The translations under genes and the position numbers were made by a program. Positions 46,856 to 62,457 of a stretch of DNA of 64,000 nucleotides are shown here, piece after piece (the first letter of the stretch is position 1; each line of letters opens with the position of its first letter). Source of the DNA: Halomonas sp. KG2 (GTDB taxonomy: Bacteria > Pseudomonadota > Gammaproteobacteria > Pseudomonadales > Halomonadaceae); the NCBI GenBank assembly GCA_030440445.1, contig CP098528.1, positions 3,658,001 to 3,722,000 of the forward strand. The letters run 5' to 3'. The notes beneath the pieces are model-generated. The model was not told the DNA's origin. It saw nothing but the letters and a program-made list of their open reading frames with translations, and ran no database searches.

Positions 46856-47122
46856 TTACGCCGCCAGAGCCTTAATGCGCTTGTTCAAGCGGCTTTTCAG
46901 ACGTGCAGCTTTCTTCTTAGAAAGAACGTCTTTATCAGCGATGCGGTCGACAACCGGCTGCATTGCCCGGAACTCTTCCATCGCTTTGCCATGATCGCCG
47001 GTGCTGATCGCTTTGATCACACGCTTGATGTAGGTGCGGACCATGCTGCGCTGGCTGGCTTTCAGGACGCGACGAGTCTCGGCCTGGCGGGCGCGCTTGC
47101 GTGCTTGCTTGCTGTTCGCCAC
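46856..47122 (-). CDS. rpsT: 30S ribosomal protein S20
   Basis: The 88-residue, very basic protein begins ANSKQARKRARQAETRR and contains RSMVRTYIKRV, as S20 does. It binds the 5' domain of 16S rRNA. The start codon is GTG, with AAGGAG six bases upstream. In E. coli rpsT a weak UUG start is part of autoregulation, so a non-ATG start here may serve the same end. It is transcribed alone, opposite in role but on the same strand as murJ downstream. Confidence 0.95.
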   Translation of the reverse strand: MANSKQARKRARQAETRRVLKASQRSMVRTYIKRVIKAISTGDHGKAMEEFRAMQPVVDRIADKDVLSKKKAARLKSRLNKRIKALAA

Positions 47123-47395
47123 AGGTATCTCCTTGGAGAATAAAGGTTGCCAATAAACGGCAACGGATTAACTATGTGTTTGTCGGTCGGCTTTCACCAC
47201 GACATTTCCGTCAGAATCTTTCCACAATAACCAATTGATTTGGAAGCAATTAAAATACTGCCAAATGATGTAACGAGCAGTTCAAAATCTGCCCGTCCAC
47301 GGGTCTTGTCTGAGAGGATGGCATAGTCTATCACGCGTTAAGCGGGCTTGCTAGCGCTTGTCAATGCTTTTCCCGCACGGATTGCCACTGACCCG

Positions 47396-48151
47396 TTATG
47401 GCAATACCTGCCCCGTTGGCGCCAGAATTTTGCGCAGAAAACGCCGCGTCCGCTCATCTTGAGGATTGGTGAACAGCGCTTCGGGCGGCCCTTGCTCGAC
47501 AATTTGCCCTTCATCCATAAACACCACCCGGTCGGCGACGTCTCTGGCGAACTGCATTTCGTGGGTCACCACAATCATGGTTTGCTGCTCGGCGGCGAGC
47601 TGTTTCATTAAGCTCAGCACCTCTTCCACCCATTGCGGATCCAGCGATGAGGTTGGCTCGTCAAATAGGATCACATCGGCATTCGCGGCCATCGCACGCC
47701 CAATGCCTACCCGCTGCTGTTGGCCACCGGAAAGTGATGCTGGATAAGCATCTGCCTTATCGGCCAAGCCAATGCGCTCTAAAATCTCCCTTGCCCGAGC
47801 GTGCGCCTGAGCCTTAGGCAGCTTATCTACGACAATCATGCCTTCGCTGATATTTTCTAACGCCGTCTTGTTAGCAAACAGCCCATAGTTCTGAAATACG
47901 AAAGCGGTTCGTCGGCGTAGCGCCAGAATATCGGCACGACTAGCACGCCGGGCATCGACTCTTAAATCGCCTACCGTGATGTGTCCCGCTTCTGGGCGTT
48001 CTAGAAAGTTAATACAGCGCAGCAGGGTTGATTTACCAGTACCCGAGGGGCCAATAATGACGATGATTTCACCCTGTTCCAGGTGCAAATCAACGTCGGT
48101 AAATACTGGCTGCTGGCCAAAACGCTTACTGACAGATTCGAGGGTGATCAT
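47396..48151 (-). CDS. Polar amino acid ABC transporter, ATP-binding protein
   Basis: The 251-residue ATPase has Walker A GPSGTGKSTLLRCINFLERPE, the Q-loop FVFQNYGLF, the ABC signature LSGGQQQRVGIGRAMA, Walker B VILFDEPTSSLD, and the H-loop VVTHEM. It is of the GlnQ/TcyN (PAAT) subfamily. Its start overlaps the permease stop by four bases (ATGA). It energises import by the binding protein and permease encoded just upstream. Confidence 0.92.
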   Translation of the reverse strand: MITLESVSKRFGQQPVFTDVDLHLEQGEIIVIIGPSGTGKSTLLRCINFLERPEAGHITVGDLRVDARRASRADILALRRRTAFVFQNYGLFANKTALENISEGMIVVDKLPKAQAHARAREILERIGLADKADAYPASLSGGQQQRVGIGRAMAANADVILFDEPTSSLDPQWVEEVLSLMKQLAAEQQTMIVVTHEMQFARDVADRVVFMDEGQIVEQGPPEALFTNPQDERTRRFLRKILAPTGQVLP

Positions 48152-48816
48152 CGCTGGTACGCCTTATTCAGATACGTTTCCAGACGGCGCTGGCCCCAGG
48201 AAAGCGCTTCCACCACCACCCAGTAAATAATCGCCACCAGCAGAAATGCTTCCAGATAGAGAAAGCTTCCAGAAGCCTCTTTTTGGGTAGCGCCCATCAT
48301 TTCGGTGACACCCAGGGTAAACGCCAGGGAAGTCGCTTTAATCATATCGATGAAGTAGTTCATCAGCGTTGGCGTTGCCACGCGGGTGGCTTGAGGCAGA
48401 ATAATCCGCCGCATCAATTGAGACTGGGTCATGCCGATGGACAGCGCCGCTTCAGTTTGGCTACGGTCAATACCGACAATTGCCGCGCGAATGGATTCCG
48501 CCATGTAGGCCGAAAAGTGCAGCGTTAAGCCAAGCACCGCAGCAGTCACTCCGTTGATGGAAATCAGCGCGTTAATCAACTGAGGCAAGCCGTAATAAAA
48601 CAAAAATAGCTGTACTAACAGCGGCGTTCCGCGAAAAAACGAGATAAACAGCAGCGCCGCGCCGTTCAACACCGGCACTCGCGATACCCGAATGACCGCC
48701 AACAGGCAGGCAATGATCAGCGCAAACAGCATGGCGATGCTCGCCATTTGCAGCGTTAACGGTAAATAGCTCAGTAGGACCGGCAACAGGTCCCACATAT
48801 ACTCCACATTCAGCAT
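48148..48816 (-). CDS. Polar amino acid ABC transporter, permease
   Basis: The 222-residue permease has about five membrane segments and the HisM/GlnP-type coupling loop ESIRAAIVGIDRSQTEAALS followed by IGMTQSQLMRRIILPQA. A single permease gene implies a homodimeric channel, as in cystine-type systems. It is 102 bases downstream of the binding-protein gene, with a strong hairpin in between. Confidence 0.9.
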   Translation of the reverse strand: MLNVEYMWDLLPVLLSYLPLTLQMASIAMLFALIIACLLAVIRVSRVPVLNGAALLFISFFRGTPLLVQLFLFYYGLPQLINALISINGVTAAVLGLTLHFSAYMAESIRAAIVGIDRSQTEAALSIGMTQSQLMRRIILPQATRVATPTLMNYFIDMIKATSLAFTLGVTEMMGATQKEASGSFLYLEAFLLVAIIYWVVVEALSWGQRRLETYLNKAYQR

Positions 48817-48858
48817 GGTTATTCCAAGGTCAGTTTCGCAACGTCGCTATAAGCGAAA

Positions 48859-48881
48859 CGGCCGTGGCAGTGCCACGGCCG
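48859..48881 (-). terminator. Intercistronic hairpin between binding-protein and permease genes
   Basis: The stem CGGCCGTGGCA / TGCCACGGCCG is 11 bp with a minimal loop and no T tract. Such hairpins after periplasmic binding-protein genes protect the upstream mRNA or reduce read-through, raising the binding protein relative to the permease. Confidence 0.7.
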
Positions 48882-48918
48882 CAATCAGTTGCTGGTCGTC
48901 TAAAGGTAAACGCCGCGA

Positions 48919-49695
48919 TTATGGCTGGGTGATATCAGTATCGAACCATTTTTGCGATATTTCACCTAATGTACCGTTTTCACGCAGCTCTTCCAGGGCG
49001 GCATCTACGCGGTCACGCTGCGCACGGCCCTCTTCATCATCACGAAACGGCAGCGCGTTTTCTATGATGGTGAACGGCTGGCCGGCCAATGCAAGCGGCA
49101 AGCCGCGCTCGCTGATCACTTGGCTGGCGCTAACGCGATCCATCACAAATGCATCGATACGGCCAAGCGCCACATCCTGCTCGACGTTGGATTCGTAGGT
49201 ACGGATATCGATCTCATCAGCATTAGGCTGTTCACGCAGCAGCTGCTCATAGTTAGAGCCTAGATTGACCGCAACGCTTTTGCCGGATAAATCTTCAACA
49301 CCTTGAATAGTGTCATTACCTGCCCGCACAACGACCTGGGCACCATCGTAAACATACGGTGCGGTGAAGGCGTACTTCGCTTTGCGCTCATCGGTGATGG
49401 TAATTTGGTTAGCAATGGTATCAATGCGCCCCGATTCCAACATGCCCGCCAAGCCAGAGAAACTCGCTGTCACGAATTCAATCTCATCGCCAGTCACATC
49501 ACCAACGGCGTTCATGACATCCACTTCAAAGCCTTTAAGCTCATCACGCTCAACGTATGTAAAGGGGAAATACCCCCCAGACATGCCGACGCGCAGCGTA
49601 TCCGCGTAAGCAGCGGCAGACAGCACACCACCCACAACGCTAAGCGAAAGAACGGCAACGGCTTTTTTCCAACGGCTCACATTCGCCATATTCAT
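48919..49695 (-). CDS. Polar amino acid (possibly cystine) ABC transporter, substrate-binding protein
   Basis: The 258-residue periplasmic binding protein has a signal peptide ending near SAAAYA, then LRVGMSGGYFPFTYVERDELKGFEVD and IDTIANQITITDERKAKYAF. The ANQI..TDERK..Y.F.PY pattern resembles cystine-binding proteins (TcyJ/FliY type), so cystine or a related amino acid is the best guess. Two ATG codons are possible (49695 and 49689) behind AGAGGGG. The second is better spaced. It is the first gene of the SBP-permease-ATPase operon. Confidence 0.88.
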   Translation of the reverse strand: MNMANVSRWKKAVAVLSLSVVGGVLSAAAYADTLRVGMSGGYFPFTYVERDELKGFEVDVMNAVGDVTGDEIEFVTASFSGLAGMLESGRIDTIANQITITDERKAKYAFTAPYVYDGAQVVVRAGNDTIQGVEDLSGKSVAVNLGSNYEQLLREQPNADEIDIRTYESNVEQDVALGRIDAFVMDRVSASQVISERGLPLALAGQPFTIIENALPFRDDEEGRAQRDRVDAALEELRENGTLGEISQKWFDTDITQP

Positions 49696-49972
49696 TTTCC
49701 CCTCTAGGGCACCTAAGCGCCCTACTTTAAACGTGGGCACTGGTTGCGACGTTAGTCGAACATCTACCAGTGCAATGAGGCCAAGATACCAGCAAAAAAG
49801 AAATAATAAACCTATTCTTTAGTTCTTTTTGGAATTTAGGGGCAACTGGTGGTGCTATAGTGATGATGGCGTGTTCGCGCTATTAAAAGGCTCCGGTCTC
49901 CCAAATTGATTGTAAACATTGCTCGACTACTACCATTCAACGTTTAAAAAAATGAGGAAGCCCATGCTTTCA

Positions 49973-50470
49973 TTAGGCATCACTTCCATCAATTTTTTTA
50001 ATAATTTTAGCAGGATGACCCGACATAATAGTGTTAGGCGGAACATCACCAACAACTAAACTGCCCGCTGCGACAACAGCATTTTCCCCTATCACGGCAG
50101 GCCCAAGCACAGTGACACCAGAACCTAGCCACACCCCCTGTTTGATGTGAATATCTCGGCCGCTATCAGGGACAGCTGTTAATCTTTCTAAGCCGGTTTT
50201 TTCGTAATCATGCGTTCCCGTCAGCAACATGCAACGATGACCAAAAAAGCAATCTTTTTCGATTGTAATATGACCTGAACGTGTATTAAGCAAAAGGTCA
50301 TTCAAAGGAATCGTAATATTATCTAGGTGCAGACGACTACGATCTCCCCATACTTTTGTCTGGCGAAGCTCTATTTCGGCCAAATATGGGCTTAAAAGTT
50401 TTGCCAAAATCTGCAAATCACTTTTACTTGCGGTTCTTAGCAAGCTCAGGAACTGCGTTTCCTGTGTCAT
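49973..50470 (-). CDS. Hexapeptide-repeat acyltransferase
   Basis: The 165-residue protein has left-handed beta-helix repeats (ITIEKDCFFGHRCMLLTG, IHIKQGVWLGSGVTVLG, AVIGENAVVAAGSLVVG) and the C-terminal PPNTIMSGHPAKIIKKI of maltose/galactoside-type O-acetyltransferases. The catalytic His is likely in TGTHDYEK. It starts three bases after the stop of the FkbM-containing gene, so both are one transcription unit. Together with the glycosyltransferase next to flagellin it could acetylate a sugar placed on flagellin. That role is inferred. Confidence 0.8.
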   Translation of the reverse strand: MTQETQFLSLLRTASKSDLQILAKLLSPYLAEIELRQTKVWGDRSRLHLDNITIPLNDLLLNTRSGHITIEKDCFFGHRCMLLTGTHDYEKTGLERLTAVPDSGRDIHIKQGVWLGSGVTVLGPAVIGENAVVAAGSLVVGDVPPNTIMSGHPAKIIKKIDGSDA

Positions 50471-50473
50471 TTT

Positions 50474-51984
50474 TTAATCCACTGAAATAGCGTTAATTTT
50501 TTTTCCGACAACTTTATTGAAAAAGCTCTTTTCACTACAACCCTCTTCATTCATCAATAAGCGGTAAGCTAAATCGAAGCTTCCGTATGCTTTGCTCAAA
50601 ATAATCGCCAATTTTTTACGCTGCTCTACAGAAGTCTCCTGCAAAGCATTAATATCTCTGACATATACTGCGTCAGCAGTAGTTAGCTGATTTATACCCT
50701 GATGAATCCCGCCATTGATTTTCATCGGTGCGTAAATTCGTTTTCTTTGCTCCAAAAGCGTATGCAGCATAAATCCATGCGCCCTCATCCATTGATCAAT
50801 CTCAGCAAAGAGCGGTTGATTTTCATAGAGCTGAATAAAGTTAACCTCTGTCTGAATCACCAAGGTATCTTTCAGCTTTTTTTCGCCGTTTCTGAAAACG
50901 TTAAGCTCACCGCCTTGGATATCAATTTTCAACCAGTCTATTTTTTCTATTTGGTCAATATCATCTAATCGTACGGTCTCAATTTCCTCGATCGACTTCA
51001 CTTTGCCCCAGATCGGATACCCTTGAAAGTGGTTAAGCACAAGGGTGTTCGGCTTTAACGTTGAGGTCATGCCCGAGGCTTGACAAATGTAAAGCTTGGC
51101 ATGCTCGCCAGTACCGACAGCATGTGGTAAATATGTCTCATTAGCCCCTTTCATAGTTTGCAATTTTTGCAATGCTTCTTTCTGTGGCTCGAAACCAACC
51201 AACGTTACTAGCCCCTGTTTGAGCATTTCTGCATAAGGAGGCGTCCCATCGATAGGATTGGCACCAACATCTACCACGCTGATTGGCTCGTCGAGTTCCC
51301 ACAAGCTTGTAGACTTATTCTTTGTACGTGGCTTTTCAAACTCGGAGGACTGAGATGCAACATTACTACTAGCCGCATCTTGGGTAGTATTATCGCTCTG
51401 TAATTCAATATGACGCTTTAATAATGCGTCAATATCTTGAGAAATATTGTCTGCTACTGCTTGATTAACTACGGGCAACTCAGATGCTTGCTTAGGCGTT
51501 ACCACGTTATCATTATCAAACTCATTTACCAGGGCTTTCACCATTCCTTCTGAAATTAAATACTCTTCCGCCTCTTCTTTATCTACACCGACCAAGAGTT
51601 CGTAACTCATATCGCGGATGCCGTAAATAGTATGTAACAGAAAAGCAAGCTTGATGCGCTGATTATTACTTAAGTTAGCCATACGTTCATGGCTGGGCAG
51701 GAAAACCGCATCAGCACTTGTTAGTTCAGTGGCTTGGCGCTGCTTGTCAGGTACGCTTTCTGGCAGATGGCTGCGGTGTTGCTCATTGTTAAAGCGGTAG
51801 AAACGGAAGCCGTGGCGACTCATCCAATGCTGCACTTCCGCGAGGTTAGATTGGCGTTGGTGCGTCGGCTGAAAGGCAATACGCACTTGAATAATAAGCG
51901 TATCCTTAAGGGCTTTTTCGCCATTTTCAAGAATTGCAGTGGAATCGCTTAGATGATCAAGAATTAACCAATCCAAGCTTTCAA
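50474..51984 (-). pseudogene. 3' part of an IS-interrupted GT41-FkbM-FkbM gene
   Basis: This is the downstream part of the gene that continues at 53671. It encodes the second half of a first FkbM-type domain (LDWLILDHLSDSTAILENGEK and following), a linker rich in Gln and Ser, and a complete second FkbM methyltransferase domain. The second domain has the SAM motif VVDVGANPIDGTPPY, then GFEPQ and IDWLKIDIQGGELNVF. The first copy lacks the KIDIQGGEL acidic motif (ILDHLSDST instead) and is probably non-catalytic. The open frame runs into the IS up to 52147 and could start there on IS-derived codons. The IS has removed its native start, so any product would be partial. Confidence 0.85.
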
Positions 51985-51989
51985 GCCCT
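51985..51989. repeat. Target-site duplication of the IS3-family element, left copy
   Basis: GCCCT here is repeated directly at 53671-53675. Joining the flanks through one copy restores a continuous reading frame. Confidence 0.75.
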
Positions 51990-52025
51990 CGGTGATTTTC
52001 AACCCAGTTGTCCAAATGGCTGCGC

Positions 52026-53141
52026 TTAAGCAGCCTGTTGATTACGCTCGATTTCGTGCATTTTTCCCGGGTTAAGCGAGACTGGGCCGGTGACTTCCCA
52101 GTTTCGAGTGTGGCCCGACCAGCGTTGCGGATGTCGCTGCTTCGCACGTTGGTATACCGCGTTCCGGCGTTCCAGGCGCTCTTGGTCTACGCCGCGATGA
52201 CGGTCCGCTGGCGTGACATACTGGATGCCACTGTGCAGGTGCTGTTCGTTGTAAGCCCGCTCGAACGCTAGCATCCATTCTCGTACCGCGCCCAGCGATG
52301 CGAAGCCCTTGGTGGGCCACGCTGGACAGTATTTGACGGTACGGAACAGCGCTTCCGAGTAAGGGTTATCATTGCTTACTCTCGGCCGACTGTAAGACAT
52401 CAACATGCCCAGCTCTGTTAGCCTCGCTTTGAGCGTATAGGAGGTCATCGGTGCTCCGTTATCAGAGTGCAGTACTGGCGGCTGATGCCAGCAACCTTCT
52501 CGCAGCAAGGCACGTTCCAAAAGCTGTTTAGCCAACTCGCCCGATTCCGTGTCGTGGACTTCCCAAGCAATGATTTTGCGGCTGTAGATATCCATGATCA
52601 GGTAAAGATACCAGTGCTGACCTCGCACAACGGAGGCACAATAACTGATGTCCCAGCTCCAGACCTGGTTTGGCCCTGTAGCCGTAAAGCTAGTCGGCTC
52701 GGGGACTGAACGACGTGGTTTCATACGGCCACGATGGTGCTGCTGATGATGCTTTTTCAAGACCCGATAAAACGACGATTCGGAGGCCAGATAGACGCCT
52801 TCGTCGGCCAATAAAGGAACGATTTGAGACGGCGGCAAGCTCTGATACTCGGGGCGATGGCACGTGTTCAAAATGGCTTGCTCTTCCTCATGCGTCAGCT
52901 GATGCGGCTGCCTGTGTTGCCCTGCATGTGGACGCTGATCCTCGACAATAGCGCCGCGCTCAGATCGCCACCGCTTCAGTGTGCGTTCGCTTATGCCGAT
53001 CACGGCAGCCGCTTGATAACGGGACGCGCCACCCATAACCGCTTCGTCAAATAGCGCGATGAGCCTTGCACGTTCCTTTAGAGGCGTTAGTCGTCCTCGC
53101 CGCTGTCCGGATCCTCGCCGTACAAGGCTTCGAGCTTTTTT
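52026..53141 (-). CDS. IS3-family transposase OrfB (DDE integrase)
   Basis: The frame encodes the catalytic half of the transposase. The DD(35)E triad is seen as Asp in QVWSWDISYC, Asp in VLHSDNGAPM, and Glu in NDNPYSEALFRTVKY 36 residues later. A helix-turn-helix-like segment (YQAAAVIGISERTLKRWRSE) precedes it. The frame is -1 relative to OrfA and is entered at the slippery heptamer 53135-53141, so no independent start is needed. It appears intact. Confidence 0.88.
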   Translation of the reverse strand, partial: KKARSLVRRGSGQRRGRLTPLKERARLIALFDEAVMGGASRYQAAAVIGISERTLKRWRSERGAIVEDQRPHAGQHRQPHQLTHEEEQAILNTCHRPEYQSLPPSQIVPLLADEGVYLASESSFYRVLKKHHQQHHRGRMKPRRSVPEPTSFTATGPNQVWSWDISYCASVVRGQHWYLYLIMDIYSRKIIAWEVHDTESGELAKQLLERALLREGCWHQPPVLHSDNGAPMTSYTLKARLTELGMLMSYSRPRVSNDNPYSEALFRTVKYCPAWPTKGFASLGAVREWMLAFERAYNEQHLHSGIQYVTPADRHRGVDQERLERRNAVYQRAKQRHPQRWSGHTRNWEVTGPVSLNPGKMHEIERNQQAA

Positions 53142-53596
53142 GAAAGCACCAGCAACGACGTTGTTTCTGCCAGCACCTTGTCTTTGCGCCGTACTTCCGC
53201 TTTGAGCTGCTTGATGGTCTTTCGGTCTTCTTTGCGCTGTTTCTGCGCTGCTTTTGCCTGCTCTTCTTGCCGACCAGCTCCTTCGAGACAAGCGGCTTTC
53301 CATTGCTGGATTTGCTCGGGATAAAGGCCTTTTTCACGACAGTAAGCGCCAAGCTCTGTTTCTGACATCGTCGCGGTTTCGATGACAACGGCTAGCTTGG
53401 CGTCAGGTGACCATTCGTTGTCGCCTTGGGTGTAACCCGGCACAGGCACTCCTTTTTCTCGACACTGTTTTAACCAACTATACAGCGTCGCGTTGGAGAT
53501 GCCTTCTTCCGTTGCTACCGACGCCACACTGCGATTGTGGGGCGGCAATAACTTTTTCAGGATGGCGGCTTTACGCTCTTCAGAATAACGTGGCAC
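53087..53596 (-). CDS. IS3-family transposase OrfA
   Basis: The protein of about 169 residues has an N-terminal helix-turn-helix (NRSVASVATEEGISNATLYSWLKQ), a second one, and a C-terminal coiled coil (KTIKQLKAEVRRKDKVLAE). The frame is open to 53653. A GTG at 53596 is a plausible start. It overlaps OrfB and ends in GEDD. Most of its length is also the N-terminal part of the frameshifted OrfAB transposase. Confidence 0.82.
   Translation of the reverse strand: MPRYSEERKAAILKKLLPPHNRSVASVATEEGISNATLYSWLKQCREKGVPVPGYTQGDNEWSPDAKLAVVIETATMSETELGAYCREKGLYPEQIQQWKAACLEGAGRQEEQAKAAQKQRKEDRKTIKQLKAEVRRKDKVLAETTSLLVLSKKLEALYGEDPDSGEDD
53135..53141 (-). promoter_or_regulatory. Programmed -1 frameshift site of the IS3 transposase
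   Basis: The minus strand has A AAA AAG with OrfA codons TCA-AAA-AAG. This is the standard X XXY YYZ slippery heptamer, and slipping by -1 enters the OrfB frame (KKARSLVRRG) directly. Confidence 0.82.
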
Positions 53597-53670
53597 ATGA
53601 ATTCCATACCGCTCCCTCTGGACTGAGTTTAGGCGATATCGCCAACCGGACAACTAGGCTGACAGAGGGG

Positions 53671-55960
53671 GCCCTTCGATGGCATCTAACGCAATAGTAT
53701 TGATCGGCAGCTTGGCAAGCACCTTAGTACCCGCCGGGCTAACACCGTGTTGCTCTCCGATGGGCAGCGGTTCCAAGATGCTGCTCATTGTTGGATCTAA
53801 GCACGAATAAAGCGTTGCTTGATTGCCATCGCCTAAAACAGCATGGGTAAAAACTTGCACATCATTGCTGCCTTCAAACCGCTCGGGATTTGTTACTTGG
53901 CTTGCTGGATCGAAGGTCACTATGCCAAATGAATTTAGTTGCCTAAGGGTATCAATGCCTTTATCAACAACTAATTTTGAACCATTATCCAGCGCTATAA
54001 TCTTGCTAGATAGCGACCAGTTAAACACAGCCGCCTCAGAGTCCATACTTTCTGCATAGACAATATCAACAGGTGTTTCTTCATCCACAAACTGTGCCTG
54101 CCCAGTTTTACCGAACGTTAAAGCGGCAGGCTGCTTTCCTTCACAATGGCGTTGCCAAATGGCACGCATCGCCAAGGTAAAGTGATTGGCAAAACGCGGG
54201 GCGTCACAAACTGGTGACTGTAGCAGTACATCCCGCAGCTGGGAACGAATAGCACTCAGGCTATCTAAGTCGCTGGCAAGCTCAATGACACGTTCGTGAT
54301 ACTCACGCCAATTATTAACGACTAACTCAGGCATGCCAACATTGACTAGATGAGTTGCCGAGTGCCGTCCAGCAAAGGTTGGCCCAGGCAAGCTAATAAC
54401 TGGCACTCCCATCAGTAACGCTTCACAAGTAGTTAACCCACCTGAGTAAGGCCATGGATCTAAAGCAATATCTACTTTGTTATAGCTTTCCAATAATTGT
54501 TGATGGGCAGAAGGCCCTTCAATTATAATCCTTTCCTTATCTACACCATTTCCTTCAAAAAGTGTTTGCACACGAATTTGTAAGCTTTCGCTACTAAACT
54601 GCATTCCTTTTAAAAAAAAGCGCGAATTTGGAATCGCTAGCAGTATTTTAGACCAACAAGCCACTATTTCTGAGTTTATCTTCGTTGGATTATTAAAACA
54701 CCCAAATGTTATATACCCATTTCCTAAAGCAGGTAATGATGCAATATTAGGCGCATAAACTGGTGGATCATAACAAATGTAATCATCAGGCATTCGAATA
54801 AGTTTTTCTGTATAGTAGTCATCAACCAAGCAAGGGGTTTCAACTGAATCACTAATCAAATAATCAATAGCTTTAACACCTGTTGTATTAATCAAACCAC
54901 CAACCCACTTCACTACAATAGGAGATGGTTTTTTAGCAATCGCCATCATGCGATTCCCAGAATTATGTCCAGCCAAGTCAATCAAAATATCAACTTTATC
55001 ACTTTTAATCAAATTTGCTGTTTGCTCTATACCTAACTGTGATATCACTTGCCATTTTTTCGCTGTTTTTTTTAGTCGCTCTGTTATCGAATCAGAGTCG
55101 TAGTTTGTCGTATAAAAGAAAAGCTCAAAATTATATTTTTTTAACTCTTCAATGGTAGATGTGATCATGTATCCAACGGGATGTCGACGAAAACCGTCAG
55201 ATATCATACCAATTCTTAATTTTCTATCTTTTTCAGTTTCACTAATTTTTGGGCACTCAAATCTTTCACTACTGAAATAATCATCCCAAACTTTGCACTC
55301 TTCTACAATTTTATCGAGAGAGATATTAGGAATATAGTGAAGTGCCGTTATTTTATTTGAAAAAGAAACATCCGACTTCGGATTCACCTTAAATGCTTGA
55401 TCATAATAGTATAGTGAATCTTCCATTTTACCTAGCTGCTTAAAAAGATTTCCCAAATTATTCCAGGCATAATATTTGTCAGGCTCGATAGCTAAGGAAG
55501 CACTTAACTTCTCTACAGCCTCTTCGTAGCGGTGTAATGCTTCTAAAATATTACCATAGGTTATCAGATAACCTGCATGACGTGGCTGTTGCCTACATGC
55601 TTCTTCAATATGACACAGAGCTTCTTTCGGATTATTACTTTTATAAAGAAGATAAGAAAGGTAATGTTCTGATTTATGAAAACCAGGCTTTATCTCTAGC
55701 GATTTTTGTAATTTATTTATTGCCCCAACATAGTCGCCTAAGTTGTATAACACCTTACCCAATACAGAATAGGCCTCATAATTATCTTCTTTTAACTCAA
55801 TTGCTTCTTCAAGCTCTTTTTTCGCACTTTCAAACAATCTTTGGTCCGTGAGTAAAACACCAAGTTTCAGTCTATAACTAGCATTATTTGGATTTTTTCT
55901 AGCCATTTTTTCAACATTTTTCAGCTGCTTATTAGCGCTATGCACCTGAGATTTTTTCAT
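53671..55960 (-). pseudogene. 5' part of an IS-interrupted TPR-GT41 glycosyltransferase fused to FkbM domains
   Basis: The visible 763 codons encode TPR repeats (about residues 28-200) and a GT41 (OGT/SPINDLY-like) glycosyltransferase domain (about 247-610). The latter has LRIGMISDGFRRHPVGYM, ILIDLAGHNSGNRMM, FGCFNNPTKI and LDPWPYSGGLTTCEALLMG. After it comes the first half of an FkbM-like domain that lacks a SAM motif. The reading frame continues only into the IS (stop at 53654). Joined to 50474-51984 through one GCCCT copy it gives 1267 codons. The GT41 catalytic domain itself is complete and might still act. The segment is clearly richer in A/T than its neighbours, which suggests transfer. 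It lies downstream of flagellin on the same strand. Confidence 0.88.
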
Positions 55961-55982
55961 CACGGCTATCTCTCACTCTAAA

Positions 55983-56009
55983 ATAAAAAGGCTGCCATAT
56001 GGCAGCCTT
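55983..56009 (-). terminator. Flagellin gene terminator
   Basis: A perfect 22-bp palindrome (stem AAGGCTGCCAT, 55988-56009) is followed on the minus strand by TTTTATTT. It lies 35 bases after the flagellin stop and 22 bases before the glycosyltransferase start. Confidence 0.9.
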
Positions 56010-56044
56010 ATGTAGTACAAAATCTCACTAATCGCTAATTAATA

Positions 56045-57232
56045 TTAGCCTAACAGTGAGAGAACGTTCTGAGGGATTTGGTTAGCCTGCGCTAATACCG
56101 AGGTTCCAGCCTGCTGAAGAATTTGAGCACGAGTCATATCAGCAACTTCAGTCGCATAATCAGCATCTTCGATACGCGAACGCGCAGCTGAAAGATTTGT
56201 TTCATTCGTATTCAAATTAGTAATAGCAGATTCAAAGCGGTTTTGAATAGCACCAAGGTCAGACCTCAATACATCAACATCTGACAAAGCAGCATCAAGC
56301 TGCTCCAAGGGGTTATTACTAGCTCCAGTCAAAAGGCTGGCTGCGGTTAGGTCAGCCCCATCTACAGTAAAGCTTGCTGTAGTGTCTGTTGTAACGTCGG
56401 CATCTTGAGGATCAAGCGCAACATTGAAAGTTACAGATGAGCCACTAGCAATATTGATACCTTGAGCCGCCAACGTTCTTGACTCAGCTTCAGTCGCAGC
56501 ACTCACCTGGACTTGAGCATACCAGTTACCATTTTCATCGACATAGGCATTAGCTGTATCAGCGGTAACTGAACCAGTAGCAATACCTAAACTAGTTGCC
56601 AAATCGTCACCAAAATCATTAACATCTGAGTCTGCGATTGAAGTGGAATCGCCATAAGCAGTTTCGAAGTTAGCAGTTGCTGCTGCAGCTACAGTTCCTT
56701 GCGCACCATTAACATTAAAACTATCTAACCCGAGCGTAGCAGCATTAATTTCTTTCAAATCTACTTCGATGGTTTGACCATCATCAGCACCAACCTGAAT
56801 AGAGATCTTTTGATCTTTTTCCAGTACTTTCGTGCCGTTGAAGTCAGTTTCCTCAGCGATACGATTTACTTCTGTCAAACGCTGGTCTATCTCAGCTTGA
56901 ATTGAGTTTAAATCTTCTTGACTATTAGTTCCGTTTTGCGCCTGAACTGTCAGTTCACGAACACGCTGTAAGTTGTCATTGACCTGATTCAGAGCACCTT
57001 CAGCTGTTTGTGAAATCGAGATACCGTCGTTGGCATTACGCTGAGCCTGTGATAAACCAGTAATCTGGCTGCTCATACGGTTGGCGATGGCTTGGCCAGC
57101 TGCGTCGTCTTTAGCGCTGTTGATACGCAGACCAGAGCTCAGACGCTCCATAGACGTGGTCAGGGCATTTTGTGATTTGGACAGGTTGGACTGGCCAATC
57201 ATGGAAGTAATGTTGGTATTGATCACTGACAT
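56045..57232 (-). CDS. fliC: Flagellin
   Basis: This is the flagellar filament protein. The 395 residues comprise the conserved D0/D1 N-terminal region (INTNITSMIGQSNLSKSQNAL, MERLSSGLRINSAKDDAAGQ), a variable centre rich in Asp, Ala, Thr and Ser (about 175-300), and the conserved C-terminal D1/D0 region (SRIEDADYATEVADMTRAQI and LAQANQIPQNVLSLLG). The surface-exposed centre offers many Ser and Thr residues for O-glycosylation. AAGGAG precedes the ATG, and a sigma-28 promoter lies 73 bases upstream. Confidence 0.96.
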   Translation of the reverse strand: MSVINTNITSMIGQSNLSKSQNALTTSMERLSSGLRINSAKDDAAGQAIANRMSSQITGLSQAQRNANDGISISQTAEGALNQVNDNLQRVRELTVQAQNGTNSQEDLNSIQAEIDQRLTEVNRIAEETDFNGTKVLEKDQKISIQVGADDGQTIEVDLKEINAATLGLDSFNVNGAQGTVAAAATANFETAYGDSTSIADSDVNDFGDDLATSLGIATGSVTADTANAYVDENGNWYAQVQVSAATEAESRTLAAQGINIASGSSVTFNVALDPQDADVTTDTTASFTVDGADLTAASLLTGASNNPLEQLDAALSDVDVLRSDLGAIQNRFESAITNLNTNETNLSAARSRIEDADYATEVADMTRAQILQQAGTSVLAQANQIPQNVLSLLG

Positions 57233-57304
57233 GGTGTGATTCTCCTTGCATGAACACTGGCCGGAAGGCCTGCTATTCGGCCACTTTGTGCGCCGTTATT
57301 AGAA

Positions 57305-57331
57305 TTAACGGCACGGCGAGAGGAATCTTTA
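57305..57331 (-). promoter_or_regulatory. Sigma-28 (FliA) promoter of fliC
   Basis: On the minus strand TAAAGATT (57324-57331) and GCCGTTAA (57305-57312) are separated by 11 bases. The consensus is TAAAGTTT-N11-GCCGATAA. Confidence 0.85.
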
Positions 57332-57401
57332 GGGCGGTTAGTAAAAAAAGATGTAATGTTTGGTAACTGTAGGGTGAGAGGCTTACTTTTCCGCGGGCAA
57401 C

Positions 57402-57423
57402 AAAAGGGCGGCTTGCGCCGCCC
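57402..57423 (-). terminator. Terminator of the downstream fliD gene
   Basis: The stem GGGCGGC / GCCGCCC with a four-base loop is followed by TTTTG on the minus strand, 24 bases after the fliD stop. Confidence 0.75.
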
Positions 57424-57447
57424 ATTGCGGGTGCCTCGCTTCGCTGG

Positions 57448-58839
57448 TTATTTCTTACGACCTAGCTGATTATCCAGGGCGTCGAATTGCTGGGTGAGGT
57501 AGGAACTCATACTATTCATCTGGGCAATCATCGCATCTAGCTGGCCGAACTGGGTGCGGTAGCGGGAGATGGTGCCTTCAATGGTTTTTTCCATACGTTC
57601 GAAACGGTCATCCAAGCTTTTAACACGGTTTTCCGCACCACTAATCGCCAGTTTGACCACGCCGTTGTTGCCCAGCATCTGTTCGATAGTGGTGTTTAGC
57701 CTACCCGCCATGCCGTCGCCCTCGTTTTCACCGGCAAAAAAGTCATTGAGGGCCTGGGGGTTATTGGCAACCAAGTCATCTAACGTCTCCTCATCGACCT
57801 TGAGCTTGCCATCTCGTTGCAGAGTGATGCCTAGCTGATTAAGCGTCGATAACTCACCGCCTTCTACGCCACCGGTTAATACACTGCGCAGCCGGGATTC
57901 GATGGTGCGCACGGTGTTATCGCCCAATAGCTCGCCAGCGGTTTCGCTATCGCCGGTAAAGCTGGTGAGTTTGCCAATAGTGCCTTTTAAGTCATTAAAC
58001 GCTTTTACAAAGCCATTAATCGCTTCGCGCTGCTTTAGCGTGTCGCGCTCAATATTAATGGTACTGGAAGCCGTTTCTCCGTCCACGATATCAAGCTCAG
58101 TAAGGTTAAGCGTTACCCCCTGAATCGCACCTTCAATACTGTTTTCCGCACTGCTAATCGCAATGCCATTAACCGTAAGCGCGGCATTCTCCCCTGAGCG
58201 CTTCGTTGCCGCATCTTCGGCAAAGGGGCCAGGCACTACGGTGCCACCGGCATCAACAAAACTAAAATTTTCAACAGAAGCGTCTGCGCCGGTCGTTTTA
58301 GAACTCAGTGCCAGCCGGTAGCCCGTGCCATCGTTGATAATCGTGGCGTTAACACCTGCATCTTTATCAGCGTTAATGGCATCACGAATATCCGCAAGGC
58401 TACTGCCTTCTGCGATGTTGATAGCGACGCTCTCGCCATCGCCAAAGGTTAGCTGCAGCACAGTTGCCCCTTGTAGATCCATGGCTGCGTCCCGCTCTCC
58501 CACGCGATTCGAGGCCAGCGTGCCAGAAGTGGCCAATTGGCTGACCTCTACCCGGTAGCTGCCCGGCAGCGCATCAGCGGCGGCAGTCGCTTTAATGGCA
58601 TCGCCACGCACATTGGCGGAAAGGCTTTGGTAGAGCTTGGGGTCATTGATTTTGGCGACCGCATCTTGAAACGAGTTCAGCGACGTTTGAAGTTGACCGA
58701 AAGCAGAAATTTTCGCCTGCTGCTGTTTCTTTTGAAGCGTAATTGGCGCGAGTTTGCCCCGCTCAGCCGCTTGAAGCTGATCAAGCAAACCAGTGAGATC
58801 AAGGCCGGAACCAACGCCAAGAGAGGTTATCGTCGCCAT
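57448..58839 (-). CDS. fliD: Flagellar hook-associated protein 2 (filament cap), copy 1
   Basis: FliD caps the growing filament and helps flagellin monomers fold into place. The 463-residue protein has the N-terminal MATITSLGVGSGLDLTGLLDQL and the C-terminal coiled-coil region ending in SYLTQQFDALDNQLGRK. The central part has the FliD domain repeats (INADKDAGVNATIINDGTGY). It is clearly homologous along its whole length to the next gene upstream. The frame is open to 58941. The start at 58839 gives the family N terminus. It has its own sigma-28 promoter. Confidence 0.93.
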   Translation of the reverse strand: MATITSLGVGSGLDLTGLLDQLQAAERGKLAPITLQKKQQQAKISAFGQLQTSLNSFQDAVAKINDPKLYQSLSANVRGDAIKATAAADALPGSYRVEVSQLATSGTLASNRVGERDAAMDLQGATVLQLTFGDGESVAINIAEGSSLADIRDAINADKDAGVNATIINDGTGYRLALSSKTTGADASVENFSFVDAGGTVVPGPFAEDAATKRSGENAALTVNGIAISSAENSIEGAIQGVTLNLTELDIVDGETASSTINIERDTLKQREAINGFVKAFNDLKGTIGKLTSFTGDSETAGELLGDNTVRTIESRLRSVLTGGVEGGELSTLNQLGITLQRDGKLKVDEETLDDLVANNPQALNDFFAGENEGDGMAGRLNTTIEQMLGNNGVVKLAISGAENRVKSLDDRFERMEKTIEGTISRYRTQFGQLDAMIAQMNSMSSYLTQQFDALDNQLGRKK

Positions 58840-58919
58840 GCGGGGGTATTCCTCAGTGCAAAAGGCTAAACCACAAGACCCAGGCGCGCATGCGCACGCC
58901 CGTTTATTTAATAGCACTG

Positions 58920-58946
58920 CTATCGGCAGAAAAGCGCACAACTTTA
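58920..58946 (-). promoter_or_regulatory. Sigma-28 (FliA) promoter of fliD copy 1
   Basis: On the minus strand TAAAGTTG (58939-58946) and GCCGATAG (58920-58927) are separated by 11 bases, nearly the consensus. Confidence 0.87.
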
Positions 58947-59007
58947 GCGCCTTTTCGCGCTTTCGCCGCTTTTCATACTTTTTTACTAGAAATGAGAATG
59001 TTCTAAT

Positions 59008-59033
59008 GAAAACGCCTGCAGGAAGCAGGCGTT
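59008..59033 (-). terminator. Terminator of fliD copy 2
   Basis: On the minus strand AACGCCTGC pairs with GCAGGCGTT (five-base loop) followed by TTC, 38 bases after the stop of the upstream fliD gene. Confidence 0.78.
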
Positions 59034-59071
59034 AGCGTAGGCGTTCAGTAACCACCCAATCACTTTAGCGG

Positions 59072-60418
59072 TTATTTACGCCCAAGCTGAGCATCGAGGG
59101 CATCAAACTGCTGGGTTAGATAGCTGCTGGTTTGGTTCATCTGGGCAATCATGCTATCTAACTGGCCGAACTGGGTACGGTAGCGTGAAATGGTCTGCTC
59201 AATGGTTTGTTCTGTTCGGGTGTAGCGCTCCACTAGGGACTCCACACGATTTTCCGCCCCGGTAATGGCTCCCTTCACTGCTCCGTTAGTACCCAATAAC
59301 TGGTCTAGGCCTTGATTTAACTGGCCAGCCATACCTGAATCGTCGGCGTCACCGGCGAAGAACGTCGACAGCGCATCCTGGTTATTGACAATGGCGTTAT
59401 CCAGCTCGCTTTCATCAATAGAAAGCGTGCCGTCCCGCTGTAGCGAAATACCAATATCACTAAGCATCGAGAACTCACCTTCGATACCGCCACTTAATAT
59501 GCTGCGCATGCGTGACTCCACAGTGCGCACCGTATTGTCGCCGTTCAGCTCGCCTGCCACGCCGGTTTCCGCATTGAAACTGGTCAGCTCGCCGATGGTG
59601 CCCTTAAGCTCGTTATAGGCATCGACAAAGCCCGTAATCGCTTCACGAACAGCGCGTGTATTCTGCTCGACTGCCACGGTGCTATCACCCTCTTCTTGAA
59701 GATTAAGCGTCACGCCTTGAATCGCCCCTTCAACCTGATTGGTAGGGCTGGTAATGGCAATGCCATTCACCGTCAACGCGGCATCGGTGCCTGCTTGCAG
59801 GGTGTTATCGGTATCCGCAGCGAAGGGCTCGGTGCCTGAAAAGCTAAAGCCGGTAATAGAGGCATCCGCACCGGTTTCGCTGGAACTAAGCGCCAGCCGG
59901 TAGTTGGTGCCGTCGTTCACAATGGTGGCGTTAACGCCTGAATCTTCATTGGCGTTAATCGCGTCACGAATATCTTCCAGGCTGCTATTCGCACCGATAG
60001 TGACCTCTTTACTGGCCCCATCACCGAATGTGAAGGTTAACGTTTGCTCAGCGGTCGTTAGCGGCGCGTCCAGTTCAGCAACGCCTTCAGAGGCCAGCGT
60101 GCCACGGGTAGCGAGTGTATCAACGGTGACGTTATAACTACCGGGCTGCGCTTCGTCATCTGCCGTGGCAGTAATGGCATCGCCCCCCACATTCGTGGAA
60201 AGGCTTTCATACAGCGCACTGTCGTTTAGCTCAGCTGATGCAGTTTGAAATTGGGAGAGCGCACTTTGCAGCTGACCATAAGCAGAAATCTTGGTCTGCT
60301 GGGTTTCCAGTTGACGCTCTATAGGCTTCAGCTTCCCTCTCTCAGCGTCTTGCAGTTGATCCAGCAAGCCATTGAGGTCGAGCCCTGAGCCAATTCCGAG
60401 TGATGAAATGGAAGCCAT
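59072..60418 (-). CDS. fliD: Flagellar hook-associated protein 2 (filament cap), copy 2
   Basis: The 448-residue FliD has the N terminus MASISSLGIGSGLDLNGLLDQL and the C terminus SSYLTQQFDALDAQLGRK, almost identical to copy 1, while the middle is more divergent (TFTFGDGASKEVTIGANSSLED against LQLTFGDGESVAINIAEGSSLAD). The two genes therefore arose by tandem duplication. Each has its own sigma-28 promoter and terminator, so both are probably expressed. No fliS or fliT was recognised beside them. Confidence 0.93.
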   Translation of the reverse strand: MASISSLGIGSGLDLNGLLDQLQDAERGKLKPIERQLETQQTKISAYGQLQSALSQFQTASAELNDSALYESLSTNVGGDAITATADDEAQPGSYNVTVDTLATRGTLASEGVAELDAPLTTAEQTLTFTFGDGASKEVTIGANSSLEDIRDAINANEDSGVNATIVNDGTNYRLALSSSETGADASITGFSFSGTEPFAADTDNTLQAGTDAALTVNGIAITSPTNQVEGAIQGVTLNLQEEGDSTVAVEQNTRAVREAITGFVDAYNELKGTIGELTSFNAETGVAGELNGDNTVRTVESRMRSILSGGIEGEFSMLSDIGISLQRDGTLSIDESELDNAIVNNQDALSTFFAGDADDSGMAGQLNQGLDQLLGTNGAVKGAITGAENRVESLVERYTRTEQTIEQTISRYRTQFGQLDSMIAQMNQTSSYLTQQFDALDAQLGRK

Positions 60419-60495
60419 AAGTTACTGCCCTTTTTTTAAATAACGCCCAACACGCTGGCGCTGCTCATACGTAAGAATGTGATTTATATTTAATA

Positions 60496-60522
60496 CTATC
60501 GACCATTAAAGCTTAGACTTGA
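60496..60522 (-). promoter_or_regulatory. Sigma-28 (FliA) promoter of fliD copy 2
   Basis: On the minus strand TCAAGTCT (60515-60522) and GTCGATAG (60496-60503) are separated by 11 bases. It matches 12 of 16 consensus positions, weaker than the other two. The rest of the A/T-rich gap up to the divergent gene at 60799 shows only that gene's promoter. Confidence 0.7.
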
Positions 60523-60723
60523 GCCTATTTGGCTTTTTTTACGTACTAAAAAGTAATGAATTGTAAAAGATGACGCTTACATAACACTAAAAAGGCATAA
60601 CACCATCAATTTTAATTAATACTTTTTGCTTTTCTCCTAGCGCCCACATGCTGAATTATCTAGATGACAGAAATATGTCAGAAAAAGGTCGGTGGTTTCT
60701 TTGACACCAACCCACCATAGACC

Positions 60724-60752
60724 TTGGTCTAATACCCGCATTGCTTTATAAT
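60724..60752 (+). promoter_or_regulatory. Promoter of the 109-residue protein gene
   Basis: TTGGTC (60724-60729) and a perfect TATAAT (60747-60752) are separated by 17 bases. The -35 box lies inside the inverted repeat TAGACC-TT-GGTCTA (60718-60731), which might be an operator. Confidence 0.65.
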
Positions 60753-60798
60753 GCGCTGCAACAAGCCCATTTTGGGGCTATTTGCAGGAGAACGACTT

Positions 60799-61128
60799 AT
60801 GCCTTCCGAGGTGTCACAACCCGCATCCAGCGTAGCGTCTGCCGCTTATCATGTGCAGCGCAGCCTACGCCACTGCCTTTCTAGCGTTGCCGAGCTGCTT
60901 TACGATAACGGCCATGTGCTCGAAACCATTACCTTGCCGCAACGCGGTCTTGCCCGGCGTGAGCTGGCTCATTTGAAGGGGCATTGCCCTAGTTGGAAAA
61001 CATGCCAACGGGTGCTCGAAGAGAGCGGTGCCGCTGAATTTAATGATTACGACCGTTTCGTACTGACGTCTATGGGACGGGAGCTAATGTTTGATATGTT
61101 TGGCCAGGGCGCTGCTGACTGCGCGTAA
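60799..61128 (+). CDS. Hypothetical protein, 109 residues
   Basis: I do not recognise this protein. It is soluble and mostly helical, with no signal peptide or membrane segment. Residues 15-55 (AAYHVQRSLRHCLSSVAELLYD and then ETITLPQRGLARRELAHLK) look like two amphipathic helices, and residues 60-100 are rich in aromatic and acidic residues. The start has AGGAG 8 bases upstream. It has its own consensus-type promoter and a strong terminator, so it is very likely real. It is divergent from fliD copy 2, which hints at, but does not show, a flagellar link. Confidence 0.8.
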   Translation: MPSEVSQPASSVASAAYHVQRSLRHCLSSVAELLYDNGHVLETITLPQRGLARRELAHLKGHCPSWKTCQRVLEESGAAEFNDYDRFVLTSMGRELMFDMFGQGAADCA

Positions 61129-61355: not shown

Positions 61356-62457
61356 CCTGGATTCATAGAATAACCGCAGCACTTTGGACACCACGGTGGA
61401 GGCAGGAGGGTCAGCGCCGGTACCCTTCTCGGCTCACCGACCAAAGTGAAGCAGAGCATGGGATACCGACAGCTGACCCAGACCCAACGATACCAGATCC
61501 ACGCCCGCTATGACTTGGGCGTGAGCCAGCGTCAAATCGGCAGAGAGCTAGGAATCCACAGCAGCACGGTCAGCCGTGAGCTGCGTCGTAACGCCACTTC
61601 TGGTGGCTACGACCCCGAGCAGGCCCAGTCCCTCAGTGATCACCGCCGCCGCACCGCCTGGAAGTGGACGAAGCGCTTGCCCAGCCTGATCACCGCCGTT
61701 GCCGACCGGCTGCGAGAGGAGTGGAGTCCGGAGCAGATCAGCGGCTTCATGGCACCGTTGGCCGGCATAGGCGTCAGTCACCAGTGGATCTACTCCTTGA
61801 TCTGGGATGACAGAGCGCAAGGTGGCGATCTATGGCGGCACCTCCGCCAACCGAAGCGTCGCAGCAAGCATCGGGCTCAGGCCAAGAGCGCTGGGCTTGG
61901 CAAGATCCCCAGCCGCGTGGGCATTGAGCATCGCCCGGCAGAGGTCGATGCCAGGCTCGTCATCGGGCACTGGGAAGGCGACACCGTCATTCAGGGGCAT
62001 AAGCAATCGGGGCTGGTGACGCTGGTAGAGCGCCGTAGCGGCTATCTGCTGGCGGCGAGGTTGCCCAGGGTCTCAGCGGAGCTGACGCAAGCGGCCATGA
62101 TCCGGCTGTTGAAGCCTCGCCGGGGTGCTGTGAAGACCATCACCCTAGACAACGGCTCGGAGTTCGCCGGCCACATAGCCGTAGGCAAGGCGGTGACCGC
62201 AAAGACCTACTTTTGCGATCCCTACTGCTCTGGCCAGCGTGGGAGCAACGAGAATACCAATGGCTTGATACGGCAGTACTTCCCCAAGGGAACAGACTTC
62301 CGCCAGGTCACCGATGCCGAGCTGCGCAAGGTGGTCGAGAAACTAAACGACCGCCCTCGAAAGCGACTCGGTTACCGGACACCGGCACAGGTGTTTCTGG
62401 GGGAGTACTCAGGAGCCCTGGACACAGCAGGTGCTGCACTTATTGCTTGAATTCAGG
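61356..62457 (+). mobile_element. IS30-family insertion sequence (about 1.1 kb)
   Basis: Inverted repeats of 27 bp flank one transposase gene. The left one (61356-61382, starting CCTGGATTCA) and the right one (62431-62457, inward CCTGAATTCA) match at 21 of 27 positions. The direct repeat AAA at 61353-61355 and 62458-62460 is a plausible 3-bp target duplication. The element sits in the intergenic region upstream of the 24-residue peptide gene. Confidence 0.85.
61446..62450 (+). CDS. IS30-family transposase
   Basis: The protein of up to 334 residues has an N-terminal helix-turn-helix (YRQLTQTQRYQIHARYDLGV then SQRQIGRELGIHSSTVSREL) and a DD(33)E catalytic core. The first Asp is in GHWEGDTVIQG, the second in TLDNGSEFAGH, and Glu in GSNENTNGLIRQYFPKGTDF. 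The length is typical for IS30 enzymes. The start could be the GTG at 61446 or the ATG at 61458. There is no stop or frameshift, so the element may still move. Confidence 0.9.
   Translation: MKQSMGYRQLTQTQRYQIHARYDLGVSQRQIGRELGIHSSTVSRELRRNATSGGYDPEQAQSLSDHRRRTAWKWTKRLPSLITAVADRLREEWSPEQISGFMAPLAGIGVSHQWIYSLIWDDRAQGGDLWRHLRQPKRRSKHRAQAKSAGLGKIPSRVGIEHRPAEVDARLVIGHWEGDTVIQGHKQSGLVTLVERRSGYLLAARLPRVSAELTQAAMIRLLKPRRGAVKTITLDNGSEFAGHIAVGKAVTAKTYFCDPYCSGQRGSNENTNGLIRQYFPKGTDFRQVTDAELRKVVEKLNDRPRKRLGYRTPAQVFLGEYSGALDTAGAALIA

Follow-up and report, generated by a model that had tools for sequence, protein, structure and literature searches.

The window studied here is a stretch of 64,000 nucleotides from Halomonas sp. 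KG2 (G000:C1:3658001-3722000, G000 being the window's own genome of 4.57 Mb), and our subject is a gene in it that has been split by an insertion sequence (IS) of the IS3 family. Reading along the minus strand we find a flagellin gene, an open reading frame (ORF) with tetratricopeptide repeats (TPR) and a GT41 glycosyltransferase domain, the IS3-family element, an ORF ending in an FkbM domain, and a hexapeptide-repeat acyltransferase gene directly downstream, whose start lies 3 bases after the stop of the split gene. We use F1 for an altered FkbM-type domain and F2 for the FkbM methyltransferase domain that follows it. The split gene, its parts and its two neighbours are the following.

56045-57232, minus strand: flagellin gene (FliC/FljB family; NF005294, 466.9 bits, cut-off 387), immediately upstream, its product the presumed substrate
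53654-55963, minus strand: upstream ORF of the split gene, 769 residues
55319-55963, minus strand: TPR region (joined residues about 1-215; ATG at 55960; Pfam TPR models)
54044-55318, minus strand: GT41 (SPINDLY/OGT-like) domain (joined residues about 216-640; PF13844)
53672-54043, minus strand: F1, first part, up to the IS junction
50474-52147, minus strand: downstream ORF of the split gene, 557 residues, with its start codon within the IS
51566-51985, minus strand: F1, second part (joined residues about 765-904)
50477-51330, minus strand: F2, FkbM methyltransferase domain with its motifs retained (Pfam match about 50771-51271)
49973-50470, minus strand: hexapeptide-repeat acyltransferase gene (PF00132, 40.3 bits)

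The TPR models exceed their cut-offs and the repeats precede the GT41 domain, which matches Pfam Glyco_transf_41 (PF13844) at 153.2 bits against a cut-off of 25. A first-pass annotation of this DNA had described the domain as OGT-like; the assignment to GT41 stands, but its nearest solved structures are plant SPINDLY (7y4i, E 4.2e-96) and then bacterial 5djs, with animal OGT only third. F2 scores 93.3 bits against PF05050 (cut-off 22.7) and retains the FkbM motif K-x-D-x-x-G-x-E, as do all of the 7 F2-type domains compared, itself included; by sequence it matched no solved structure at E <= 0.1.

The junction and the inserted element

Excision of 51985-53670 fuses the flanks into a frame of 3,804 bases from the GTG at 55963 with its sole stop at the end, or 3,801 bases (1,266 residues and a stop) when counted from the ATG at 55960. 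This is the frame predicted by the first-pass annotation, and the residues that it gave across the rejoined split, ALDAIEGLESLDWLILD, were reproduced. The remaining two frames of the rejoined sequence contain 98 and 149 stops, on which count a chance open frame was rejected.

Relatives were collected in two ways. A same-genus search covered 82 genomes with the GT41 half as query, and a scan of named genomes with a profile (A1) of the shared stretch gave 89 relatives, of which 80 were kept; these 80 are the basis of all counts over 80 below, and the window's own F1 is absent from the tree made of them. Two further sets were A3, with 68 of the 80 F1 domains, and A4, with 35 loci picked by hand from the GT41-type loci.

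Both residues at the split site were present, with nothing inserted between them, in 80/80 named relatives. In the same-genus set, examined as 20-kb pieces, 46 of 48 F1-bearing ORFs were unbroken over the split, and the two exceptions (L058 and L066) are truncated ORFs. Since all 80 relatives are continuous across the split, we rejected the alternative that two separate genes had been juxtaposed by the IS. The flanking ORFs are, as first proposed, halves of one gene in the order TPR, SPINDLY-like GT41, altered FkbM-type F1 and FkbM methyltransferase F2, cut inside F1 by the IS, and there are relatives in which a single ORF, continuous at the predicted junction, holds both the GT41 and the FkbM parts. 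The features of the insertion are listed below.

51990-53671, minus strand: IS3-family insertion sequence, 1,682 bp, transposase ORFs co-directional with the split gene
53672-53675: target duplication CCCT, first copy
51986-51989: target duplication CCCT, second copy
53087-53653, minus strand: IS orfA (HTH_Tnp_1)
52026-53303, minus strand: IS orfB (rve integrase core; NF033516 IS3 family transposase, 190 bits, cut-off 160)
51999-52020: left arm of an imperfect inverted repeat near the IS ends (partner 53641-53662; 22 nt, 77% complementary)

The window's genome holds five copies of the element with 0 mismatches across 1,681 compared bases, and their comparison places the IS ends at 51990 and 53671. 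All five copies have four duplicated bases, and only three have a fifth (G); the 5-bp duplication GCCCT of the first-pass annotation thus fails at two copies and was replaced by the 4-bp CCCT, a change that leaves the joined sequence unaltered. Members of the IS3 family make short target duplications of 3-5 bp. The element has the IS3-type DDE transposase, the 4-bp duplication and the terminal inverted repeats expected of this family. Partial and diverged relatives of it (79-86% identical) were seen at G000:C2:5307-5911 and G000:C1:1401142-1401270 (L008-L010). No structured RNA scored above the Rfam gathering scores in 47000-61000.

F1 and its varying partners

Long frames reaching past the split were found in 17 other same-genus genomes (L012-L028), with most or much of TPR-GT41 matched, and about as many further same-genus frames, or more, matched only at residues around 640-766. 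One of the 17, L028 (G075), has a stop in its N-terminal half. Stops were also seen in the gene of G074 and G021, where sequencing error is possible because both genomes are less complete. Among the 80 named loci an F2-type module follows F1 directly in six (L121, L129, L131, L133, L143 and L153). The order TPR-GT41-FkbM-FkbM is unbroken in five of them, L131 and L133 stopping after F2 and L129, L143 and L153 extending further, while L121 (V. titanicae) is interrupted in its N-terminal half. In L057 (8753-13307), which is from the same record as L121, the draft genome of V. titanicae BH1, a gene of this kind is split by a stop in the GT41 region.

The closest full match is L133 (Halomonas sp. 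EAR18), a gene of 1,300 residues with flagellin 91 bp upstream and, 2 bp downstream, an acyltransferase gene 85% identical to that of the window. Flagellin linkage is general: a flagellin gene lies upstream in 76 of the 80 named loci, and the other four end within 1.3 kb. In 68 of the 76 it is within 500 bp on the same strand, in four at 501-1700 bp, in three within 500 bp on the opposite strand and in one at 3.8 kb. Flagellin was likewise nearby in 46 of 49 same-genus loci; two of the misses are contig ends, and the third, L059, is a weaker match with no flagellin within the 9 kb available. Nine of the 80 loci (L128, L133, L140, L152, L167, L176, L179, L193 and L197) have a homologue of the window's acyltransferase gene next to the F1 gene, at most 50 bp downstream and on the same strand; eight of the nine are without a C-terminal module, as if the separate gene stood in for it.

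F1 shares its descent and its fold with the FkbM methyltransferases, and in this sense the two FkbM domains of the first-pass annotation are both of FkbM type. Only F2 is a regular member of the family, however. In F1 neither the K nor the second G of the K-x-D-x-x-G-x-E motif occurs in any of the 80, and at least 76/80 have A, S, N or G in place of the E. When F1 of 16 relatives was compared with Pfam FkbM (PF05050) none reached the cut-off, and only two matched at E <= 1 (best 0.016). The F1 protein of L088/L190 had no Pfam match, and by sequence F1 matched no solved structure at E <= 1. F1 keeps the methyltransferase fold but probably not the FkbM chemistry. In an AlphaFold model of TPR-GT41-F1 from L122 (pLDDT 89.3, pTM 0.68) the linker at 639-644 is weak and the placement of F1 relative to GT41 is not fixed.

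The partners of F1 differ greatly between loci. On the N-terminal side, where the classes rest on manual assignment from blastp results, the 80 comprise TPR-GT41 (55), GT4-type (15), sulfotransferase-like (5), another TPR protein (2) and none (3); among the five sulfotransferase-like parts Pfam backs only L170 (the L087 protein), and L168 (L085) has no match. The C-terminal parts are more diverse. A class I methyltransferase without a Pfam match (20) and no part at all (19) are the largest classes, followed by sulfotransferase-type (7), FkbM F2-type (6), two other sets of 6, one of them GT2, TPR plus methyltransferase (5), one class of 2 and nine singletons. Pfam searches on 61 C-terminal parts gave Sulfotransfer_3 (14), Glycos_transf_2 (13), FkbM (9), Methyltransf_23 (6) and GT56 (1). 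In two loci, in the regions L190 5959-8071 and L183 5968-8050, F1 forms a gene of its own beside flagellin, and the gene directly behind it is a separate one with TPR repeats; that of L190 also matches LicD, and its L183 counterpart reads alike. The stand-alone F1 of V. andesensis has 304 residues, and H. elongata has an F1 gene that is intact. Judged by these sequences, F1 and not GT41 is the constant part of a family centred on Halomonadaceae, and the C-terminal part is the one that changes most often.

The N-terminal types need 6 changes on the F1 tree (minimum 4, shuffled mean 23.7) and the C-terminal parts 45. In comparisons made without the tree, 170 of the 219 pairs whose F1 identity is 60% or higher have different C-terminal classes; of the 267 pairs with homologous tails, 52 have tails whose similarity exceeds that of F1 by 15 points or more. 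One could explain such variety by old fusions and losses sorted by lineage, with no exchange of cassettes. The good fit of the N-terminal types to the tree agrees with this, as do C-terminal classes C4 and C5, which need just 3 and 2 changes. We nevertheless regard it as improbable, since the six F2-type tails need 6 changes and reach 81% identity at an F1 identity of 50%, and since the window's tail differs from that of V. alkaliphila inside flanks that are 95-98% identical. In V. alkaliphila DSM 16354 the gene is intact and ends in a class I methyltransferase tail.

The commonest C-terminal module, of about 190 residues, is found at L120 (6901-7473) and 19 other named loci (YFEFGSGGSTVWA ... 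VDGRFRVAC ... IHDFWNRP); it resembles a class I methyltransferase and in L120 has no Pfam match at E <= 0.01.

The first-pass annotation took the architecture of the gene to be unusual. It turns out to be one of many, F2 following F1 in six of the 80, and a GT41-methyltransferase fusion beside flagellin is not in itself new, because such fusions are reported from Enterobacteriaceae in the accessible portion of PMC4875605. The window might simply hold an ordinary IS hit in a known GT41-methyltransferase gene of a flagellin island, F1 being the methyltransferase domain already noted in that family. According to the same portion of PMC4875605, all GT41 enzymes of De Maayer and Cowan save eight GT41-11 contain AdoMet_MTases domains. 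The commonest C-terminal part here also reads as a class I methyltransferase, and C. difficile GT2, in what is available of PMC5207246, likewise pairs a glycosyltransferase with a methyltransferase domain. Against this, F1 occurs without GT41 in 25/80 named loci, its motif changes are common to the 80, and among evenly drawn Gammaproteobacteria F1-like matches were found in just 4/369, two from the window's genus and two weak. On these grounds we find the explanation unlikely.

Searches for F1 gave no match in the phage collection and only five weak FkbM matches (identity <=33%) among plasmids, and a phage- or plasmid-borne F1 was rejected. The window's genome has no F1 match outside the split gene.

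Mosaic composition of the window gene

Compared with V. alkaliphila, the flanks of the locus are nearly the same, the fliD genes being 98 and 95% and an ABC substrate-binding gene 97% identical. Between them the identity falls to 71% for flagellin, 33% for TPR and 53% for the N-terminal half of GT41, and rises to 86% for the C-terminal half of GT41 and 90% for the first part of F1; the window's F2 and acyltransferase have no counterpart at the V. alkaliphila locus. H. salicampi is nearest for the window's flagellin (87%), TPR (73%) and N-terminal GT41 half (72%), and L133 and others are nearest for F2 (75-78%) and the acyltransferase (85%). Synonymous differences agree with these identities, at 0.32-0.44 in the retained core against V. 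alkaliphila and, in each remaining block, 0.84-0.89 against the relative nearest to it. It thus looks as if two blocks had been replaced around a core made of the GT41 end and F1, one consisting of flagellin and the N-terminal half and the other of F2 and the acyltransferase.

The dN/dS values of this core are 0.21 and 0.12, which shows purifying selection on the gene. The IS, whose five copies are identical, arrived later and appears to have been recently active.

The apparent replacement of flagellin together with the TPR half favours TPR as the reader of the substrate, but over 49 loci flagellin showed no clear covariation with TPR, GT41 or F1. A different possibility is that F1 docks flagellin, doing the job of the TPR repeats of FlmG (see below), so that any enzyme fused to F1 would be brought to flagellin. 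F1 is indeed the sole part common to the TPR-GT41, GT4, sulfotransferase-like and stand-alone forms beside flagellin, and the stand-alone F1 of L190 has a separate TPR-LicD gene behind it. We find docking by F1 unlikely, as the window's flagellin switched donor with TPR and the N-terminal half of GT41 while F1 stayed like that of V. alkaliphila, and covariation of flagellin with F1 is not clear over 49 loci (Spearman 0.12).

Proposed function and effect of the insertion

We consider it rather probable that the gene would encode a flagellin-modifying enzyme with exchangeable end modules and F1 as their hub, broken in this strain by the IS. The intact protein would modify flagellin in the cytoplasm, ahead of export. 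Its TPR region may hold flagellin, GT41 would attach the first sugar, F2 would methylate the glycan and the downstream acyltransferase would acylate it, with F1 as a putative hub onto which varied finishing enzymes recombine. It is a guess that F1 serves as a hub and not as an enzyme.

The suggested role of TPR follows Caulobacter crescentus FlmG, whose TPR domain binds flagellin and whose GT domain glycosylates it, according to the available part of PMC7591256. Both proteins combine N-terminal TPR with a glycosyltransferase (GT-B in FlmG) in one polypeptide dedicated or linked to flagellin, the linkage in our family being that of the 76 named loci. FlmG has 596 residues, and the same part of PMC7591256 describes no FkbM, sulfotransferase or other finishing module; the window gene in contrast has F1 and a variable tail and abuts the flagellin gene. 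The island GT41 enzymes of Enterobacteriaceae share with it the fusion of a SPINDLY-type GT41 to a methyltransferase domain and the position next to flagellin, whereas tandem FkbM-type domains, F1, sulfotransferase or GT2 tails and exchange of tails are not described in the accessible portion of PMC4875605. Flagellin GT2 of C. difficile type B also joins glycosyltransferase and methyltransferase in one protein of the flagellin locus, but it is of the GT2 family with a Pfam 08241 methyltransferase and is without TPR or F1 in the text available of PMC5207246. Within the FkbM family (PF05050, TIGR01444) F2 is a member by score and motif, while F1 shares descent and fold only. In polymorphic toxins a constant protein has its C-terminal domains replaced through recombination; the swapped parts of the F1 family differ in resembling carbohydrate-modifying enzymes and not toxins. 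A search of the open-licence literature gave no account of F1 or an F1 hub, of the Halomonas locus of this gene, or of the exchange of tails, and a Halomonas paper (PMC9232590) does not deal with the gene in its available passages. The GT41-methyltransferase fusions of flagellin islands are already published, as far as the accessible portion of PMC4875605 goes, and no description of the F1 hub or the tail exchange was found in the open-licence literature.

Several observations weigh against the proposed hub and its exchange of modules. No F1 match was found in 34 of the 82 same-genus genomes, so the gene is dispensable. Over 49 loci the divergence of flagellin does not clearly follow that of TPR or F1 (Spearman 0.10 and 0.12; Mantel 40 and 43 of 500). 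The eight multi-member tail classes need 36 changes against a shuffled mean of 43.5, a value as low in 0/200 shuffles, and tails are thus not fully scrambled on the F1 tree, which is a quick tree with 19 open forks. In F1 the D-N of motif I (D 79/80, N 76/80), F-D-P and the L-G-x-G stretch are nearly invariant, which suits a working pocket, and the motif I Gly is kept in 43/80. Further, TPR-GT41, which is whole after the insertion, might work alone.

F1 could accordingly still be an enzyme, a methyltransferase or another transferase of changed chemistry that acts on a glycan shared by these flagellins and is conserved for that reaction. Across the 68 F1 rows of A3, 11 columns are invariant and 34 nearly so, and many of them fall where the old S-adenosylmethionine pocket was; D-N and F-D-P are retained in nearly all 80, and stand-alone F1 genes exist. 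On the other side stand the loss from all 80 of motif K and second G, the replacement of E in at least 76/80, and the constancy of F1 while many kinds of partner enzyme change. We regard an enzymatic F1 as doubtful.

A wider interpretation, in which we place somewhat less than even confidence, is that the family forms a combinatorial writer of flagellin glycans in Halomonadaceae and some other Gammaproteobacteria. A fixed altered-FkbM hub would have its enzyme modules on either side swapped by recombination, the exchanged modules being methyltransferases, sulfotransferases, glycosyltransferases and glycerophosphotransferase-like enzymes, and the flagellin gene could travel with the N-terminal half. 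If this is true, strains would alter their flagellar surface chemistry in single steps, plausibly under pressure from phages or grazers, and the flagellar chemistry of a large group of halophiles would have diversified by module swaps within a gene and not by gain and loss of separate island genes. The role of an altered methyltransferase domain as the only fixed part of a varying enzyme becomes testable, and the family offers natural fusions of protein-glycosylating with glycan-finishing domains.

In the window's strain the IS leaves TPR-GT41 attached to a cut F1 plus five foreign residues, while F2 is severed from its start. With F2 severed and F1 cut, the flagellin of this strain is probably unmodified or short of its finishing steps; residual activity is possible as the insertion spares the whole of TPR-GT41. 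Here a close relative of V. alkaliphila carries a naturally broken version of the gene.

Some further features were seen around the locus. Two fliD-like genes stand in tandem upstream of flagellin (57448-58941 and 59072-60418), and such pairs occur in many, not all, same-genus loci. The window's genome has a second, shorter flagellin gene at G000:C1:4253519-4254316 (L207, L208). A second mobile element is indicated by a transposase ORF at 61446-62450, which resembles the IS30 family.

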